Shown here: positions 10,574-17,700 of the stretch, piece after piece
How the letters are laid out: every line of letters begins with the position of its first letter
Position numbering within the stretch: position 1 is the first letter of the stretch
Translations under genes and position numbers: made by a program
The notes under the pieces: model-generated
The model's input: the letters and a program-made list of their open reading frames with translations, nothing else
What the model was told of the DNA's origin: nothing
Database searches by the model: none
Assembly: GCA_035627955.1 (NCBI GenBank)
Contig: DASPKU010000013.1
Coordinates: 1 to 64,000 of the forward strand
DNA from: Phycisphaerales bacterium
Lineage (GTDB): Bacteria > Planctomycetota > Phycisphaerae > Phycisphaerales > UBA1924
Direction: 5' to 3'
DNA length: 64,000 nt

Positions 10574-12055
10574 TTACGAAGCGCCGACGGCTTCGGCCCC
10601 CATCGCCACCTTTTCGTCCACCCGCTCGATGCACGCGCCCAGGGACCGCAGGCGGTCCTCCATGCGCTCGTAGCCGCGGTCAAGGTGGTACACGCGGTTA
10701 ACGACCGTCGTTCCCTGCGCCGCCATGCCGGCGAGCACCAGCCCCGCGCTGGCACGCAGGTCGCTGGCCATGACGGGCGCGCCGACCAGGCCACGCACGC
10801 CGCTGATGACGATGGTCGAGCCCTGGCGGATCACCTTGGCGCCCATCCGGAGCAGTTCGGCCACGTGCAGGAAGCGGTCGGGGAAGATGCGCTCGGTGAT
10901 CACCGAGTTGCCGTCGGCCAGGGTGAGCAAGGCCGCGAGCTGGGCCTGCAGGTCGGTCGGGAACCCGGGGTGCGGCTGCGTGGTCACTTCGACCGGCCGC
11001 AGCACGCGGTCGCAGGTTACTCGCACGCTGCGCCGCATGGGGTCGTTATCCGTATTCCTAAATGGATCGCTGCTGCCGCTCGTGATCGTCAGCGCCGGAG
11101 TGCGGTGGCGCACTCCGTTGCCGTTGGCGTAGCCGTTCCCATTCGCGTGCCCGTTATGCCCATTGCCGTGTCCGAACCCATTCGTGCTCGTCACCGGCAG
11201 GCTGGTCAGTGGCTGCACGTGCACGCCGCAAGCTGCAAGCGTGTACGTCACGCTCAGCAGCGCGTCCATCGGGCAGTTGTCGAGCGTGAGATCGCCGTTC
11301 GTGATGGCCGCAGCCATCATGAACGTGCCCGCCTCGATGCGGTCGGGGATGACGGTGTAGTCCGCGCCATGGAGCTCTTCCACGCCCTGGATGGTGATGC
11401 GCGGCGAGCCCGCGCCGGTGATCTTCGCGCCCATGGCGTTCAGCAGGTTCGCGAGGTCCACGATCTCCGGCTCGCACGCGGCGCTCTCGATGATGGTGGT
11501 GCCCTTGGCCAGGGTCGCGGCGGACATCACGTTCGCGGTACCCAGCACCGTCGAGCCGAACGAACCGCCCAGGAATACCGTCGCCCCCACCAGCCCGCCC
11601 GGGGGCGCCTTGACATAGATATCGCCCGCCGTGAGCGTCACCTGCGCACCGAGGGCCGCCAGCCCCCGCAGGTGCAGGTCCACGGGCCGATCGCCGATGG
11701 CGCACCCGCCGGGCATGGAGACCCGGGCGTACCCGCGCCGGGCCAGCATCGGACCGAGCGTGCAAATCGACGCCCGCATGGTCTTCACAATCTCGTACCG
11801 CGCGTGCGAGAGGCTCTCGTCGGTCGACTGAAGCCGCACGGCCCCGTCCACCAGCCCTGCCTCGCTGGTGCAGCCGAGCTCGCCCAGCAACTTGAGCATG
11901 TTGCGGATGTCCGCGAGGCTGGGGACGTCCCGCAGCGTGACGGGTTGGTCCGTCAGCAGGGCCGCCGCCAGCATGGGCAGGGCCGCGTTTTTGGAGCCAT
12001 TGATCCGAACCCGCCCGAACAGGCGGTGACCGCCCTCAATCACGAACGTATCCAT
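10574..12055 (-). CDS. murA: UDP-N-acetylglucosamine 1-carboxyvinyltransferase MurA with internal insertion
   Basis: First committed step of peptidoglycan synthesis: transfers enolpyruvate from PEP to UDP-GlcNAc in the cytoplasm. Start at ATG 12055 (MDTFVIEGGH), which matches the family N-terminus; the frame runs further upstream without family similarity. Recognisable motifs: GSKNAALP, MPGGCAIGDRPVDLHL with the catalytic Cys at 118 (equivalent to Cys115 of E. coli), VIPDRIEAGTF, FPTDLQAQ and the C-terminal DRGYERMEDRLRSLGA. At 493 residues it is ~70 longer than usual. The extra is mainly a Gly/Asn/His-rich stretch at residues ~289-340, followed by a normal C-terminal half. Shows this organism makes, or can make, peptidoglycan precursors. 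Confidence 0.96.
   Translation of the reverse strand: MDTFVIEGGHRLFGRVRINGSKNAALPMLAAALLTDQPVTLRDVPSLADIRNMLKLLGELGCTSEAGLVDGAVRLQSTDESLSHARYEIVKTMRASICTLGPMLARRGYARVSMPGGCAIGDRPVDLHLRGLAALGAQVTLTAGDIYVKAPPGGLVGATVFLGGSFGSTVLGTANVMSAATLAKGTTIIESAACEPEIVDLANLLNAMGAKITGAGSPRITIQGVEELHGADYTVIPDRIEAGTFMMAAAITNGDLTLDNCPMDALLSVTYTLAACGVHVQPLTSLPVTSTNGFGHGNGHNGHANGNGYANGNGVRHRTPALTITSGSSDPFRNTDNDPMRRSVRVTCDRVLRPVEVTTQPHPGFPTDLQAQLAALLTLADGNSVITERIFPDRFLHVAELLRMGAKVIRQGSTIVISGVRGLVGAPVMASDLRASAGLVLAGMAAQGTTVVNRVYHLDRGYERMEDRLRSLGACIERVDEKVAMGAEAVGAS
11035..11190 (-). repeat. Gly-Asn-His low-complexity insertion inside murA
   Basis: On the minus strand this stretch encodes NGFGHGNGHNGHANGNGYAN and then a Ser/Asp/Arg-rich linker, with degenerate repeats of GGCAACGG-like units. 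It replaces the short beta hairpin between the AACGVHV-equivalent and the VTTQPHPGFPTD motif of other MurA proteins. It keeps the frame, so the enzyme is probably intact with a surface loop. Confidence 0.75.
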
Positions 12056-12439
12056 GGAATCCCTTCGCGCCCGCTGCTGGCCGCCACGCCCGTCCCGGCT
12101 CCGTTGGTCCCGATAACCGCGTTCCGTCCGCGGCCACAGGACCGCCCTTGGGCCGGCGGGCCGCACACTACATCGGCCCCCCGGGTGCTTTGGCTTGGAA
12201 GACAGCAACCGCGCGCTGATCCACACCGCTGACGCAGCTCGATGGACTCGGAAAGGCGATGGAGCGAGGGCCGAACGCGAGGGGGCCGCTACACCCCGCA
12301 CAGGCCCACCTGCTCCGGCGCATCACCCCCAACTTTCCGCCCATGAGGCTGGCACGCCGCCGGCGCGAATCGGAACCTTGATCGTGTGCGGTTCCCGCGT
12401 GGGCCACAAGCCGACGCGACGTTTGCAGGGAGGTTCCTT
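12056..12439. other. Divergent intergenic region between murA and the fibro-slime gene
   Basis: 384 bases with no gene I can support. It must hold the promoters for murA (minus) and the fibro-slime protein (plus). I saw no convincing -35/-10 pair, riboswitch or repeat. A short open frame on the minus strand (12168-12407) has no start signal or recognisable content. Confidence 0.5.
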
Positions 12440-13444
12440 ATGCGTCTCAAGCTCTCCACCTTCGCTCAGTCAGCAGCCGTCCTGGCCGCGCTCGCCGGCG
12501 GGCTCGCCCTGGCCGTGCCCCCGCCTGGCAACGGCAACGGGAACGGCGGTAGCGGCGGAAGTGGGGGTACTACCGGCGGCACGACCGGCGGCACCACGCC
12601 ATCCGACCCCTACGCTGCGCTCCCCGCGTTCGTCCGCATGGAGGGCGTGGTGCGCGACTTCCGCGCCCGCAACGTCGCGGGCGGCCACCCCGACTTCGAG
12701 ATGACCCCCGCCCAGGGCTTCGGCCACTACGCCGGCATGGTGCAGGACACCCTCGACGCCGACGGCAAGCCGATCTTCCGCTCCACGGGCTACAAGGTCT
12801 CCACCCAGTGGAAGGACGCCTCGGGCCAGAACATCATGCCGGGTCCGGCGAAGGCTTATATCCAGGGCCGTGTGGGCGACGTCACGGGTCAGATGGATGT
12901 GAATCCCGGCGGCGCGGTTACCAGCGCCAACAGCTTCTCGCAATGGTTCCGCGATGTGCCGGGCGTCAACATGTCCGCCCTGATCCCGCTCACGCTGAAC
13001 CGGATCCCGGGCACCAACCGCTACGTGTTCGACGACTCGCTCGACACGCACTACGCCCAGCTCGAGGGCTTCTTCATGGTCAACGGCCGCCTGCAGGGCG
13101 CCAATGGCGGCGCCCAGGGCGGCAACAAGAACTACCACTTCACCTACACGATCGACTCGACCTTCACCTACCGGCACGGGCAGGGCCAGTACTTCTCCTT
13201 CAAGGCCAACGACGACCTCTGGGTCTTCATCAACGGCCAGCTCGTGATCGACCTTGGCGGCGTCGCGGCCAACACCCTTCAGCGCATCGACCTCGACCGC
13301 TTGAGCTTCCTGAGCGACGGTCAGGACGCCCGCATCCAGGTGTTCTACGCCAACCGCAACCGCCCGCTGTGCAACTTCCGAATGGAGATGTCGATGGCGA
13401 TGCGCCGCGTCGATCCGCCGCCGATCACCGAGCCTTTCGACTGA
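12440..13444 (+). CDS. Fibro-slime domain protein, secreted
   Basis: Start at ATG 12440 after a clear AGGGAGG site; an in-frame ATG at 12386 lacks one and would spoil the signal peptide. The 334-residue product has a signal peptide (MRLKLSTFAQSAAVLAALAGGLALA), then a Gly/Asn/Thr tract (~30-55), then a PA14-like fibro-slime domain. Characteristic pieces are MEGVVRDFRA, HPDFE, FSQWFRDVPGVN, NYHFTYTIDSTFTY and KANDDLWVFINGQLVIDLGG (~255-280). Fibro-slime domains occur in slime-mould and bacterial surface proteins and in cellulosomal/carbohydrate-binding proteins; carbohydrate or matrix binding is therefore likely. Ends just before a strong terminator, so it is transcribed alone. Confidence 0.88.
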   Translation: MRLKLSTFAQSAAVLAALAGGLALAVPPPGNGNGNGGSGGSGGTTGGTTGGTTPSDPYAALPAFVRMEGVVRDFRARNVAGGHPDFEMTPAQGFGHYAGMVQDTLDADGKPIFRSTGYKVSTQWKDASGQNIMPGPAKAYIQGRVGDVTGQMDVNPGGAVTSANSFSQWFRDVPGVNMSALIPLTLNRIPGTNRYVFDDSLDTHYAQLEGFFMVNGRLQGANGGAQGGNKNYHFTYTIDSTFTYRHGQGQYFSFKANDDLWVFINGQLVIDLGGVAANTLQRIDLDRLSFLSDGQDARIQVFYANRNRPLCNFRMEMSMAMRRVDPPPITEPFD

Positions 13445-13467
13445 TCGCGACCACAACTGAGCACCCC

Positions 13468-13500
13468 ACGGCCGGCGCCACACGCCGGCCGTTTTCTTTT
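13468..13500 (+). terminator. Intrinsic terminator after the fibro-slime gene
   Basis: Inverted repeat ACGGCCGGCG, loop CCACA, CGCCGGCCGT, then TTTCTTTT. Confidence 0.9.
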
Positions 13501-13504
13501 CATC

Positions 13505-13901
13505 ATGCATGGACGAAGCCGGACTGAGCCGCTCTCCACGAGGCCGGGACTGAGCCGCTCGTGGCGAAGTCCCGGATCGGCGGCGACGCAGTTCGCTGCG
13601 ACGCCCTCCCACCCCTCCCACATCCACCCTCCGCGCACGCCAATTCGTTGCCCCACCTGGCAGCGAATTTGAAACTAGAGGTGTCCGACGGGTATGCGAC
13701 GGATCGCAAGGCTGCCCGGAGGAAGGAGAGACGGCGGGCTTCAAGCACCCGCCCTTTGCCCTCGGCCTGCGGGGCCCCGGCGGACTGGACGCTTCCGGGG
13801 CGGCAGGGACCGCCAATGGACCCGGCGGTGGGCGCGACGCCGAGGGGACTGAGTTCCACGCCCGGGTTGGCCTCGTGGCCGCCCGGGCGTTGACTTTTTT
13901 T
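13505..13901 (+). ncRNA. Candidate structured non-coding RNA with its own terminator
   Basis: 474 bases separate two gene ends, and this stretch is dense in perfect hairpins. From left to right: 13536-13542/13558-13564; a UUCG-loop hairpin at 13587-13600; an 11-bp stem with one G-U pair at 13642-13652/13659-13669; 13733-13738/13748-13753. Next comes a long-range stem, 13759-13766 with 13839-13846, enclosing two smaller stems (13775-13780/13795-13800 and 13810-13814/13824-13828). It ends in a very strong terminator with seven T. A possible promoter (TTGAAA at 13669, 18 bases, TATGCG at 13693) would start a ~195-base RNA near 13705, leaving the first three hairpins upstream. No RNase P, tmRNA, SRP or riboswitch core motif matched. 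No protein gene in it is convincing. Confidence 0.5.
13858..13901 (+). terminator. Intrinsic terminator of the 13.5-13.9 kb RNA candidate
   Basis: Stem ACGCCCGGG (13858-13866) with CCCGGGCGT (13882-13890), inner stem GGCC/GGCC around TCGT, then TGAC and seven T. No plus-strand protein gene precedes it, which is the main argument for a non-coding transcript. It may also serve the minus-strand side, where a lipoprotein gene ends at 13919. Confidence 0.85.
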
Positions 13902-13918
13902 GGCTCGATGACGCGGGC

Positions 13919-14320
13919 TTACTCCCAGGAGCGCCAGTAGAAGTACAGGTCGCCGCGCTGCGAGCCCCGCGGGTTGGCGGTGTTGAAGTAGATCAGCGTG
14001 CGTGCATCCCGCGGCAGGACCAGGTACCGGGCGTCATCCAGCGCCGGGACCGGTGCCGAGGGCCAGGAGTCGATGTCGAATGCGGTTGCCGGCTCGCGCA
14101 CGTTCAGGGCCGCGTCGCGGCGCGACAACTCGTCGCCGGCAATTTCGTCCGCGACGGCGATCAGTACGCCGTGGAACACGACCTCCGACCCGGCTCCCTG
14201 CGACCCCGCGTAGACAGGGGCGGGGCTGCGGGTGTGCGGCACAGAAACGCGGCTGGAACCGCACGCCGCCAGAGGCAGCACCGTCGGCAAGGCCACCAGG
14301 ATGACAGCCAATCTGCACAT
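13919..14320 (-). CDS. Small lipoprotein of unknown function
   Basis: Start chosen at ATG 14320 because GGGAG lies eight bases upstream and the protein then opens with a lipoprotein signal (MCRLAVILVALPTVLPLAAC; lipobox LAAC). An ATG 42 bases upstream is possible. The mature part (~115 residues) contains ARYLVLPRDARTLIYFNTANPRGS and ends in GDLYFYWRSWE. I do not recognise a family. Probably anchored in the outer membrane or periplasmic leaflet. Confidence 0.72.
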   Translation of the reverse strand: MCRLAVILVALPTVLPLAACGSSRVSVPHTRSPAPVYAGSQGAGSEVVFHGVLIAVADEIAGDELSRRDAALNVREPATAFDIDSWPSAPVPALDDARYLVLPRDARTLIYFNTANPRGSQRGDLYFYWRSWE

Positions 14321-14478
14321 GCGCCAGACTCCCGGCACAAGTGTGACCCGGTTTTGACTCATCCACCAGCAATCCAGACCCGCCGCCAGCGGTCGTGGCT
14401 TGGCGCGCAGCTGCTGACGCCCGAGAACCTTGCGCGCGGATGCCGCCCCGCACGCAACCAGCGTCCTCAAACAGGTGA

Positions 14479-14507
14479 TTGAGCCCCGTGCCCTCGTCTG
14501 CTCTAAT
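14479..14507 (+). promoter_or_regulatory. Probable promoter upstream of the purL leader
   Basis: TTGAGC at 14479-14484, exactly 17 bases, then TCTAAT at 14502-14507 (5 of 6 consensus positions for the -10). Predicted RNA start near 14514, just ahead of a chain of hairpins ending in a terminator. Confidence 0.5.
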
Positions 14508-14513
14508 CCGCCC

Positions 14514-14678
14514 TCCCTTCCGCAATGGAACGGGCGCAGGCAACATGACACTTTCAGCGGCCAGCTCAGGACCAGTGGCCGCCCCCAATCAAGTGCTCGG
14601 CGGCGGGTCGCAAGACCCGGTCACGCCCGCCGAGCGCCCCACGCCCCAGGGTCTCACGATCCCGGGGCGTTTTCGTTT
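14514..14678 (+). ncRNA. Candidate small RNA or attenuator leader of purL
   Basis: About 165 bases between a plausible promoter and an intrinsic terminator. Hairpins: GCGGCCA (14557-14563) with TGGCCGC (14576-14582); a two-part helix 14595-14603 with 14627-14635, enclosing CGGGTC-GCAA-GACCCG (a GNRA-type tetraloop, 14604-14619); then the terminator. purL starts 97 bases after it on the same strand, so it could be a terminated leader controlling purL or an independent small RNA. I could not match it to the purine, ZTP or other known riboswitch cores. A short open frame from ATG 14546 crosses the terminator and is unlikely to be the product. Confidence 0.5.
14641..14678 (+). terminator. Intrinsic terminator upstream of purL
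   Basis: ACGCCCC (14641-14647) pairs with GGGGCGT (14664-14670), with an inner GGG/CCC stem, then TTTCGTTT. Located 97 bases before the purL start on the same strand. Confidence 0.8.
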
Positions 14679-14774
14679 GCACCTAAGTATTGCGTGGCGT
14701 GATAGATGCGCCGGTGGCGCCGGCCCCGCCATGTGCGATGATCACCTCTCAACCGTCCGCACTACCATGGCCCC

Positions 14775-17700
14775 GTGCCCACCCTCCACCGCATCGAAGT
14801 ACGGACCCGTCCCAACCTGCCCGATCCGCGTGCTCACAGTGTGAAACGCCGGGCCGAGGCGCTGGGGTTCCATGGTCTGCGCGAGGTCAACACCGCGAAG
14901 GTGTACCTGGTGGAGGCGGACCTTGACGGGCCGATGCTGGACCGGGTGTTGGCGCGGCTGCTGAGCGACCCGGTGACCGAGCAGGCGACGGTCGGGGCCG
15001 CGGAAGTGAAAGGGGCGGTGCAAACAATTGAGGTGCACCCGTTGCCGGGCGTCATGGACCCCGCGGCCCAGTCGGTGATGGACGCGATCAAGGACCTCAC
15101 CGGGTCGATGCCACTGGTTTCGACGGGGTCACGGTTTGATCTCGCAGGAGTATCGAAAGAGCAGGCAGAGACACTGGCGAAGCAGGTGCTGGCGAACCCG
15201 GTGATCCACCAGATCAGCGCAGGGCCGTGGCAGCCGAAGGCGCTGCCGCGGGGGCACGGGTACAAGCTGCAACTGCGGTCGGTGCCGATTCTCGGGTTGA
15301 GCGAAGAGGAACTGACGCGACTCTCGCGGGATGCCCACCTGTTCCTGAGCCTGGACGAGATGCGGGCAGTGCAGGCGGAGTTCCGGCGGATCGGGCGCGA
15401 CCCGACCGACATCGAGCTGGAGACGCTGGCGCAGACGTGGTCCGAGCACTGCGTGCACAAGACACTCAAGAGCACGATCCGGTACACGCCGGGTTCTGGG
15501 CCGAAGGGTTGGAAAGACCCGATCCCGTGGGGCGAGCACCCGAACCACACGGTGAACGCGGATGGGTCGGTGACGATCGGGAACCTGCTGAAGTCGACGG
15601 TGGCGGCCGCGACGTTCGAGCTGATCGATGAGGGGATCGACTGGACACTGTCGGTGTTCAAGGACAACTCGGGGGTGATCGCGCTGGACGATCAGCACGG
15701 CGTGTGCATCAAGGTGGAGACGCACAACCACCCGTCGGCGCTGGAGCCTTACGGCGGCGCTGCCACGGGCGCGGGCGGGTGCATCCGCGACGTGATCGGC
15801 ACAGGGCTGGGCGCGAAGCCGATCGCGAACACGGATGTGTTCTGCGTGGCGAACCCGGGGATGACGAGCACGCCGCCGGGGACGCTGCACCCGCGCAGGA
15901 TTCTGAGCGATGTGGTGGCGGGGGTGCGCGACTATGGCAACCGGATGGGGATTCCTACGTTGAACGGGGCCGTGTACTTCGATGACCGGTACGTGGGTAA
16001 TCCGCTGGTGTTCTGCGGGTGCATCGGGCTGATCCCGCGGCACCTGATCAAGGGCAAGGCGAAGAACGGCGACCGGATCATCGCGCTGGGCGGGCGGACG
16101 GGGCGGGACGGGATCCACGGGGCGACGTTCTCGTCGGCGGAGCTGGAGGAGGGGCACAGCGACGAGTTCAGCCATGCGGTGCAGATCGGCAACGCGATCG
16201 AGGAGAAGCGGCTGCTGGATGCGATCCTGCGGGCGCGCGACTTTGTCCCGCCCGAAAGCACTTCGTCACTTCGACCCTCCGTCACTCCGTCACCACTTTT
16301 CAACGCCATCACGGACTGCGGCGCCGGCGGGTTCTCGTCGGCGGTGGGCGAGATGGGCGGCGAGATCGGTGCGGAGGTGCATCTGGAGCGGGCGCCGCTG
16401 AAGTACGCGGGGCTGTCGTACACGGAGATCTGGATCAGCGAGGCGCAGGAGCGGATGGTGCTGGCCGTGCCGCCGGAGAACCTGCCGCACCTGCAGCGGA
16501 TCTGTCTCGAGGAGCACGTCGAGCTGGCGGACCTGGGGCACTTTGGCACCGAGGGTGCGGAGCTGGTGCTGTTCTACGAGAAGACGGAGGTTGGGCGGCT
16601 GTCGATGCACTTCCTGCACGAGGGCATTCCGACGCCGACGCGGGAGGCGACGTGGGCGTTGTCCGGGGGCAGTGATACAGCGGTGCAGCGATACAGCGAT
16701 CCATCGGGGAAGGGCGTGCAGCAGTCGCTGCTCTCGCTGCTCTCACACCCGACGATCGCGAGCAAGCACTGGATCATCCGCCAGTACGACCATGAGGTGC
16801 AGGGGAACACGATTCTGAAGCCGCTGGTGGGGCCGGGCGGGCGCGGGCCAGGGGACGGGGCGGTGCTGGAGCCAGTTTCTGGGAGTGGAAGAGGGATCGC
16901 GATCGGGTGCGGGCTGGCGACGCCGCTGGGCGATCCGCAGGTGGCGGGGAGCGACCCGTACTGGATGGCGATCGCCGCGATCGATGAGTGCGTGCGGAAC
17001 ATCGTGTGCGTGGGCGGCAACCCGGACCGCACGGCCATCCTTGACAACTTCTGCTGGCCCAGCTGCGCCAAGCCGGAGAACCTGGGCTCGCTGGTGCGGG
17101 CGGCGGAGGGGTGCTATTCGGGGGCGAAGGCGTACCGCACACCATTCGTGAGCGGCAAGGACTCGCTGAACAACCAGCTGCGGTACACCGACCCGGCGAC
17201 GGGGAAGGAGCGGGTGATCGAGATCCCGCCGACGCTGCTGATTACCGGGCTGGCTCACGTGACGAACGTGTCGCGGTGCGTGACGATGGACGCGAAGAAG
17301 CCTGGGAACGTGCTGGTTCTGATTGGCGTGAACCAGCCGCAGATGGCCGGTTCCTTGTACGCGGCAGTGGCTGGTGCCCGGTCTTTCAGCCCGGCTCATG
17401 ACACCATCCTCATCCCGGACCTCACGCTGGGGCCAGCAACGGCGCGGGCCGTGGCGCAGTGCATCCAGGATGGGCTGGTGCAGAGCGCGCACGATGCATC
17501 GGACGGCGGCCTGCTGGTCGCTATCGCGGAGATGCTGATCGCGACAACGGGGAGCACGACGGCGAGCCAGCGCGGCACGCCTGGCGCTTCTTCCGGCGCA
17601 GGCTCCTCTCTGCTCTCCACGATTCTGGGCAAGTCCGACGCGCAGGCCTCGACCCCGCCGCTGGGCGCCGAACTCACGATCAGCGACGACCACCTGGACG

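Follow-up and report, generated by a model that had tools for sequence, protein, structure and literature searches.

A stretch of 397 bases (13505-13901) lies between a gene for a fibro-slime-domain protein, which ends at 13444, and a convergent open reading frame, which ends at 13919. Both belong to the window, the whole 64,000 nucleotides of Phycisphaerales DNA that was analysed. A first-pass annotation of this DNA had proposed that the stretch is an orphan structured RNA. The question that this locus raises is whether one RNA of about 400 bases is present here or whether its parts have separate origins. The stretch is a composite intergenic region that consists of a genome-specific repeat, an unconserved spacer, and a conserved 3'-end hairpin (Table 1). 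Only the terminal hairpin looks like a real RNA feature. The earlier proposal therefore stands for the last 51 bases, which are conserved with compensatory changes, but not for the 400-base unit, whose 5' end is a repeat and whose middle has no convincing relatives. In the following, G000 is the window's own genome, other G-numbers are other genomes, L-numbers are loci, and g-numbers are genera.

Table 1. Features of the intergenic region and its flanks (positions in the window).
Feature	Position	Strand	Evidence
Fibro-slime-domain protein gene, 334 aa, PA14-like	12440..13444	+	NCBIfam TIGR02148 E 2.6e-24, 85.5 bits (cut-off 45); Pfam PA14 E 1.5e-5
First terminator-like hairpin, 10-bp stem and T-rich tail TTTTCTTTT, 3' of the fibro-slime gene	13468..13500 (stem 13468-13492)	+	Fold z -5.2
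Dispersed palindromic repeat copy	13513..13592	+	85-92% identity to long copies elsewhere in own genome
UUCG-loop hairpin, 5-bp stem	13587..13600	+	z -0.8; conservation not seen
Spacer, holds 11-pair stem 13642-13669	about 13593..13841	+	No convincing relatives in own genome or 60 relatives
Conserved leader GAGTTCC of the element	13851..13857	+	19-sequence alignment A3
Conserved element hairpin	13858..13890	+	Lower stem 13858-13867/13881-13890; bulged U at 13868; upper stem 13869-13872/13877-13880; loop at 13873-13876
T7 tract of the element, begins 4 nt past the stem	13895..13901	+	Sequence
Convergent open reading frame, 210 aa, without family match	13919..14551	-	ORF list, Pfam/NCBIfam profile searches

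Coding potential, known RNA families and hairpin content

No supported gene had been seen in the stretch, and this agrees with the profile searches, in which the two open frames tested inside it have no Pfam match. A protein-coding reading of the two open frames that overlap the conserved hairpin was rejected on the same result and because the loop length varies among relatives by non-multiples of three. A plasmid origin was likewise rejected, with no match of the stretch in a plasmid collection. Known RNA families, for several of which no core motif had been seen, were rejected as well. The Rfam covariance search that had been proposed was run, and nothing in the window reaches a gathering score; at E values up to 10, Rfam 15 gives three matches in the window, all far below gathering. 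Rfam 15 also gives no match above the gathering score in six of the 12 exact-pattern loci described below. The models of tmRNA and of bacterial class A RNase P RNA do not match at the stretch, and matches over their cut-offs lie elsewhere, at C15:278405-278756 and C1:396109-396554.

Several of the individual hairpins that had been pointed out are real. The terminator that ends the preceding gene and the UUCG-loop hairpin are both there, and the 11-bp stem is present, though one of its 11 pairs is G-U and the stem is thus not perfect. The number of hairpins, taken as a sign of structured RNA, is no higher than base composition gives. Watson-Crick stems of at least 5 pairs with loops of 3-14 number 6 against a shuffle mean of 4.9 (73 of 200 shuffles as high), and those of at least 6 pairs number 3 against 1.7 (43 of 200). 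With G-U pairs allowed, there are 7 stems of at least 6 pairs (shuffle mean 6.4; 94 of 200 as high) and 8 of at least 5 pairs (10.1; 193 of 200). A count restricted to loops of 3-8 gives 3 hairpins against 3.05 in shuffles. Stem counting in GC-rich intergenic DNA can thus mimic a large RNA where there is really a repeat, a spacer, and a short motif.

The 5' end is a dispersed repeat

The repeat copy at the 5' end is composed of a degenerate unit at about 13518-13532 and a full hairpin, CCGGGACT..AGTCCCGG, at 13544-13575. When up to 3 mismatches are allowed, G000 has 46 sites of the 28-base core GGGACTGAGCCGCTCTGGGCGAAGTCCC and the 162 other genomes of the family have 1, and the same pattern read backwards, used as a control, has 0 sites in G000. 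The 15-base repeat unit, with up to 2 mismatches tolerated, gives 110 sites and its reversal 15. A lone site in another genus (G115:C13:73901-73928) resembles the repeat core and has both arms changed together (GGGGCT with AGCCCC).

In 47 sources, the window and 46 loci of its own genome, 57 unit sites were compared. The 3' arm is present in 49 of these; 37 have the common stem, 4 have both arms altered together (CCGAGACT with AGTCTCGG), and 8 lose 1-2 pairs. The sequence GA stands on both strands between the outer and the inner stem, and units can form tandem arrays with a spacing of 27 nt (L028). Crude gene calls place 8 of 49 repeat copies within a called frame and leave 6 without a left neighbour. 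By the same calls, a same-strand gene is found upstream of 29 of the 35 copies that lie outside called frames and have a called left neighbour.

The repeat fits a REP-like family. It is a short palindrome with many copies (46 sites) that are mostly extragenic (8 of 49 inside called frames). It resembles the GTAG- and CGTC-tagged REP elements of PMC3733652 in its short palindrome, 8-bp outer stem, tens of copies, position mostly outside called frames, and restriction to one genome. The sequence GACG, which is CGTC on the other strand and may correspond to the published tag, directly precedes the stem in 42 of 57 units; in its place the window's full unit has GAGG. The repeat differs from the CGTC families in the 16 nt that separate the arms of its 8-bp stem; theirs have loops of 4-5. 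A tyrosine transposase flanked by the repeat, as in GTAG-type elements, was not found: the genome has 9 Y1_Tnp matches, none so flanked in the loci read. A transposase carrying the repeat was rejected on the same loci, in which no Y1_Tnp match is tied to it. In this the repeat is like the CGTC repeats, for which PMC3733652 reports no associated transposase either. At L234 (G000:C17:21000-23800), a Y1-type transposase match at about 960-1580 is flanked on either side by a direct copy of another palindrome (GGCATGGCCGCGACTGAGCGGCCATACG).

The middle is an unconserved spacer

The sequence 13593-13848 has no second copy in its own genome, where the next best match has an E value of 0.08. As part of a 411-base query against 60 other genomes, with at most 11 candidates scored per genome, the middle gave short matches only, in stretches that differ from genome to genome. 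The best of these (E 3.4e-4 over 37 bases) reaches into the conserved 3' element. The middle also folds little better than shuffles (13604-13846, z -1.1, 33 of 200 shuffles as stable), despite its stable 11-pair stem, which, chosen post hoc and folded alone, has a z of -6.1 with 0 of 200 shuffles as stable.

These results bear on the reading of the entire 397 bases as a single orphan structured RNA. The fold of the whole stretch (z -2.4, 2 of 100 shuffles as stable) and the 11-pair stem agree with it, but it would have to accommodate a repeat at its 5' end and a middle that neither folds well nor has convincing relatives. The relatives themselves have no room for an RNA of 400 bases, because their copies of the 3' element begin 20-245 nt after the stop codon. 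We regard this reading as highly improbable. Conservation of the stems in relatives had been named as a check on it; the terminal hairpin passes with covariation, but conservation of the UUCG hairpin was not seen and the middle has no convincing relatives.

The 3' element follows fibro-slime genes

The conserved element is the last 51 bases of the stretch, 13851-13901, and is composed of GAGTTCC, a 14-bp GC-rich hairpin with a bulged U, and a T7 tract. It belongs to fibro-slime genes in part of one Phycisphaerales family. It first came to light because G003, G002, and G011 each have a 90% identical match to the last bases of the stretch, in every case 3' of a fibro-slime gene. A covariance model built from four sequences (R1) was then run over 163 genomes of the family, and 50 of these have a match at E<=0.01. 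Among the best 30 R1 loci, 19 have a fibro-slime gene, and in all 19 the element is on the gene's strand and behind its stop codon. The other 11 have no fibro-slime gene and mostly weaker scores, and several resemble ordinary terminators by eye. The 19 loci are the window and 18 relatives from eight genera, seven besides the window's own. The element lies 20-245 nt from the stop codon in the 18 relatives and 411 nt from it in the window.

A second model (R2) run over 400 genomes of the order gave 21 genomes at E<=1e-6. All are in the window's family: the same 19 plus G091 and G001, in which the R2 match lies on another contig than the fibro-slime gene. Both the R1 and R2 runs used stricter filters, with which weak matches are lost. 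An exact pattern, CCACGCCCGGGYTGG-N6-11-CCGCCCGGGCG, was searched in 84,980 species genomes (one per species) and occurs at 12 places, each of which follows a fibro-slime gene at a distance of 20-245 nt. Judged by this distance, the element, and protein identity, the 12 coincide with loci of 12 of the 18 relatives; the scan therefore shows specificity and adds no members. Eleven of the record titles name Phycisphaerae, Phycisphaerales, Phycisphaeraceae, Planctomycetaceae, or Planctomycetota; the twelfth record bears the title Leptolyngbya sp. PLA1. This last one (L182, QWIH01000037.1) has the fibro-slime gene and element of G143, and its assembly is probably mixed or mislabelled.

Fibro-slime genes as such are widespread, with 148 of the family's 163 genomes having them. 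No strong element was found behind other fibro-slime genes in 77 oriented regions of the 80 that were fetched (L120, L133, and L134 were dropped). Run unfiltered on all 80, R1 gave best scores of 24.5 bits (L149, G036) and 22.5 bits (L164, G001), and these two matches are perhaps diverged copies of the element that fall outside the count of 19. In genus g23, four fibro-slime genes (L143, L144, L146, and L147) precede another long hairpin that is alike among them (ACGCCGTG..CACGGCGT) and has no long T-tract.

The element was not found in Rfam and is modestly interesting as a conserved 3'-end hairpin motif. Among the listed titles and opening lines of abstracts on fibro-slime, Phycisphaerae noncoding RNA, planctomycete REP elements, UTR-derived small RNAs, and planctomycete small RNA or termination, none names such an element.

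The element hairpin is supported by covariation

The strong terminal hairpin with seven T that had been described was confirmed. Like an intrinsic terminator, it is GC-rich and stable, with 13842-13901 folding at -34.6 kcal/mol (z -3.9, 1 of 200 shuffles as stable). Alignment A3 is composed of the 19 fibro-slime loci and excludes the 11 best-30 loci without such a gene. It has 10 lower pairs, the bulged U, and 4 upper pairs, and the same helix is found unaided by RNAalifold. In A3, 97.7% of the alignment cells are paired, and pairing falls to 36-47% when the partner is shifted by 1-3 columns. Changes on both sides occur at 3 base pairs and amount to 10 cells; shuffles give 2.8, and none of 500 reaches as many. 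The independent events number fewer than 10, because a single pair (columns 28-39) accounts for 8 of these cells, 6 of them with G-C in genera g3 and g4. Half of the pairs (7 of 14) are invariant and hence uninformative on structure.

The first five nucleotides of the leader, GAGTT, have a mean pairwise identity of 72%, against 25% at positions -14 to -8, and are kept without consistent pairing. An outer helix of GAGUU with GACUU was rejected, being unpaired in 9 and 10 of the 19 sequences at two of its five pairs; the covariation score of the extended structure stays above shuffles because the inner helix is included. On the 3' side, a run of at least four T within 14 nt of the stem is present in 15 of the 19 genomes. 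G002, G011, G145, and G035 have no T-run of 4 and retain the hairpin. In the window, where the T7 is offset from the stem, a simple terminator scan made no call at the element.

The palindrome CCCGGG in both stem arms would also suit a DNA site for a dimeric protein or for recombination. Such a site would not be expected to keep one orientation to the gene at all 19 loci, and both the one-sided bulge and the U-G pair at columns 24-42 (14 of 19) suit RNA better. A DNA site is, in our view, barely credible.

The element is more conserved than its surroundings

A comparison of 19.9 kb around the element with five relatives, in which no more than 40 candidates were scored for any genome, gave 101 matches. 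All five genomes match the element, at 88-93% identity. Only three other matches in the 19.9 kb are as alike, each of 42-45 bases (88-91%) and in one genome. A script checked 56 of the 101 match rows against GC-frame gene calls, and the other 45 were checked against one called frame. The rows outside called frames, other than the element, were seen by eye to be in or to run into other open frames, including RNase H-like and Sir2-like ones. The element is thus, as a judgement on gene calls and not a proof, the sole recurrent match outside frames taken as genes in these 19.9 kb and five relatives; the judgement is limited because open frames abound in GC-rich DNA and the element itself overlaps two unsupported ones.

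Could the element be an ordinary intrinsic terminator, alike among these genomes merely through short divergence time and of no special role? At the 3' side of the family's other fibro-slime genes, the most stable hairpins are often terminator-like and alike within some genera (some may sit in downstream genes), and stems with CGCCCGGG also occur at L055, L056, L059, and L065 without a fibro-slime gene. Short divergence is at odds with the fibro-slime gene itself, which in the same five relatives is 65-67% identical in long matches, against 88-93% for the element. Moreover, the fibro-slime frames of the 18 relatives are only 35-54% identical to the window's protein, and the spacers between stop codon and element share little: those of G142 and G143 are 98% identical over 59 nt, and five other pairs match over 12-21 nt. 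We therefore consider a plain terminator without further role unlikely.

The element was also considered and rejected as the marker of a single protein clade. A protein tree of 49 rows does not unite the genes that bear it in one clade, and the label needs 7 changes, at least 5 of them forced. In genus g12, the element is behind a gene of a second paralog group; by this tree, two different fibro-slime paralogs have it at their 3' side. The window's protein is diverged, with an end branch of 0.86.

A probable mRNA 3' end with a likely sequence-specific constraint

In the reading that we prefer, at a probability of roughly 0.6, the fibro-slime mRNA would end in the element, which would act as a terminator or protecting hairpin under an extra sequence-specific constraint. 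The hairpin and U-tract would stop transcription, and the hairpin may shield the 3' end from exonucleases. The element shares with intrinsic (Rho-independent) terminators a GC-rich hairpin at the 3' side of a gene and, in most genomes, a T-run after it. It is unlike them in its near-invariant lower stem, bulged U, and 5' leader over eight genera, and in its T-tract, which here stands 4 nt away from the stem and which 4 of 19 genomes lack. Because these four keep the hairpin, plain intrinsic termination would not be sufficient everywhere, and with the stem nearly invariant, a further sequence-specific role is likely. Terminators usually drift quickly. A hairpin kept near letter-for-letter in eight genera, whose proteins are 35-54% identical, indicates an extra reader of the RNA, and the near-invariant stem, bulge, and leader suggest that it would read by sequence. 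Candidates are an RNA-binding protein, an antisense partner, or use of the element as a 3'UTR-derived small RNA.

In the window's genome, gene and element are separated by a REP-like repeat, an unconserved spacer, and an extra terminator. Most transcripts of the gene may miss the element here because the first terminator intervenes; the window's element would then be either the gene's second terminator or the end of a separate transcript.

The latter touches on a different account, in which the element is a separate small RNA, transcribed from a promoter in the spacer or cut from the mRNA, that would pair through GAGUUCC or its loop. A separate transcript is possible in the window's genome because the terminator at 13468-13500 lies upstream of the element. 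The retention of the element beside so diverged a protein, and of a leader that lacks consistent pairing, would also suit a small RNA. However, G061, G177, and G062 have only 20-24 nt from stop to element, which leaves no room for a promoter outside the gene, and that the spacers share little also speaks against this account. A scan for sigma-70-like promoters in 11500-15500 found none and is uninformative, as shuffles average only 0.1. A separate small RNA is, on balance, rather doubtful.

The 3'UTR-derived small RNAs of bacteria have a conserved 3'-end sequence that closes in a terminator-like hairpin. The element resembles them in this. It differs in that its conserved unpaired part is only about 7 nt. 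A bolder form of the preferred 3'-end reading would make the element a new RNA regulator that acts on fibro-slime genes in a sequence-specific way, either a 3'UTR hairpin with a dedicated partner or a released small RNA. We put this forward tentatively, as possible rather than probable. The element would offer a small, testable entry into planctomycete RNA regulation. In G011, G061, and G181, another fibro-slime gene lies downstream on the same strand, and the element stands between the two tandem genes. If the element were an RNA regulator, it could set their relative expression.
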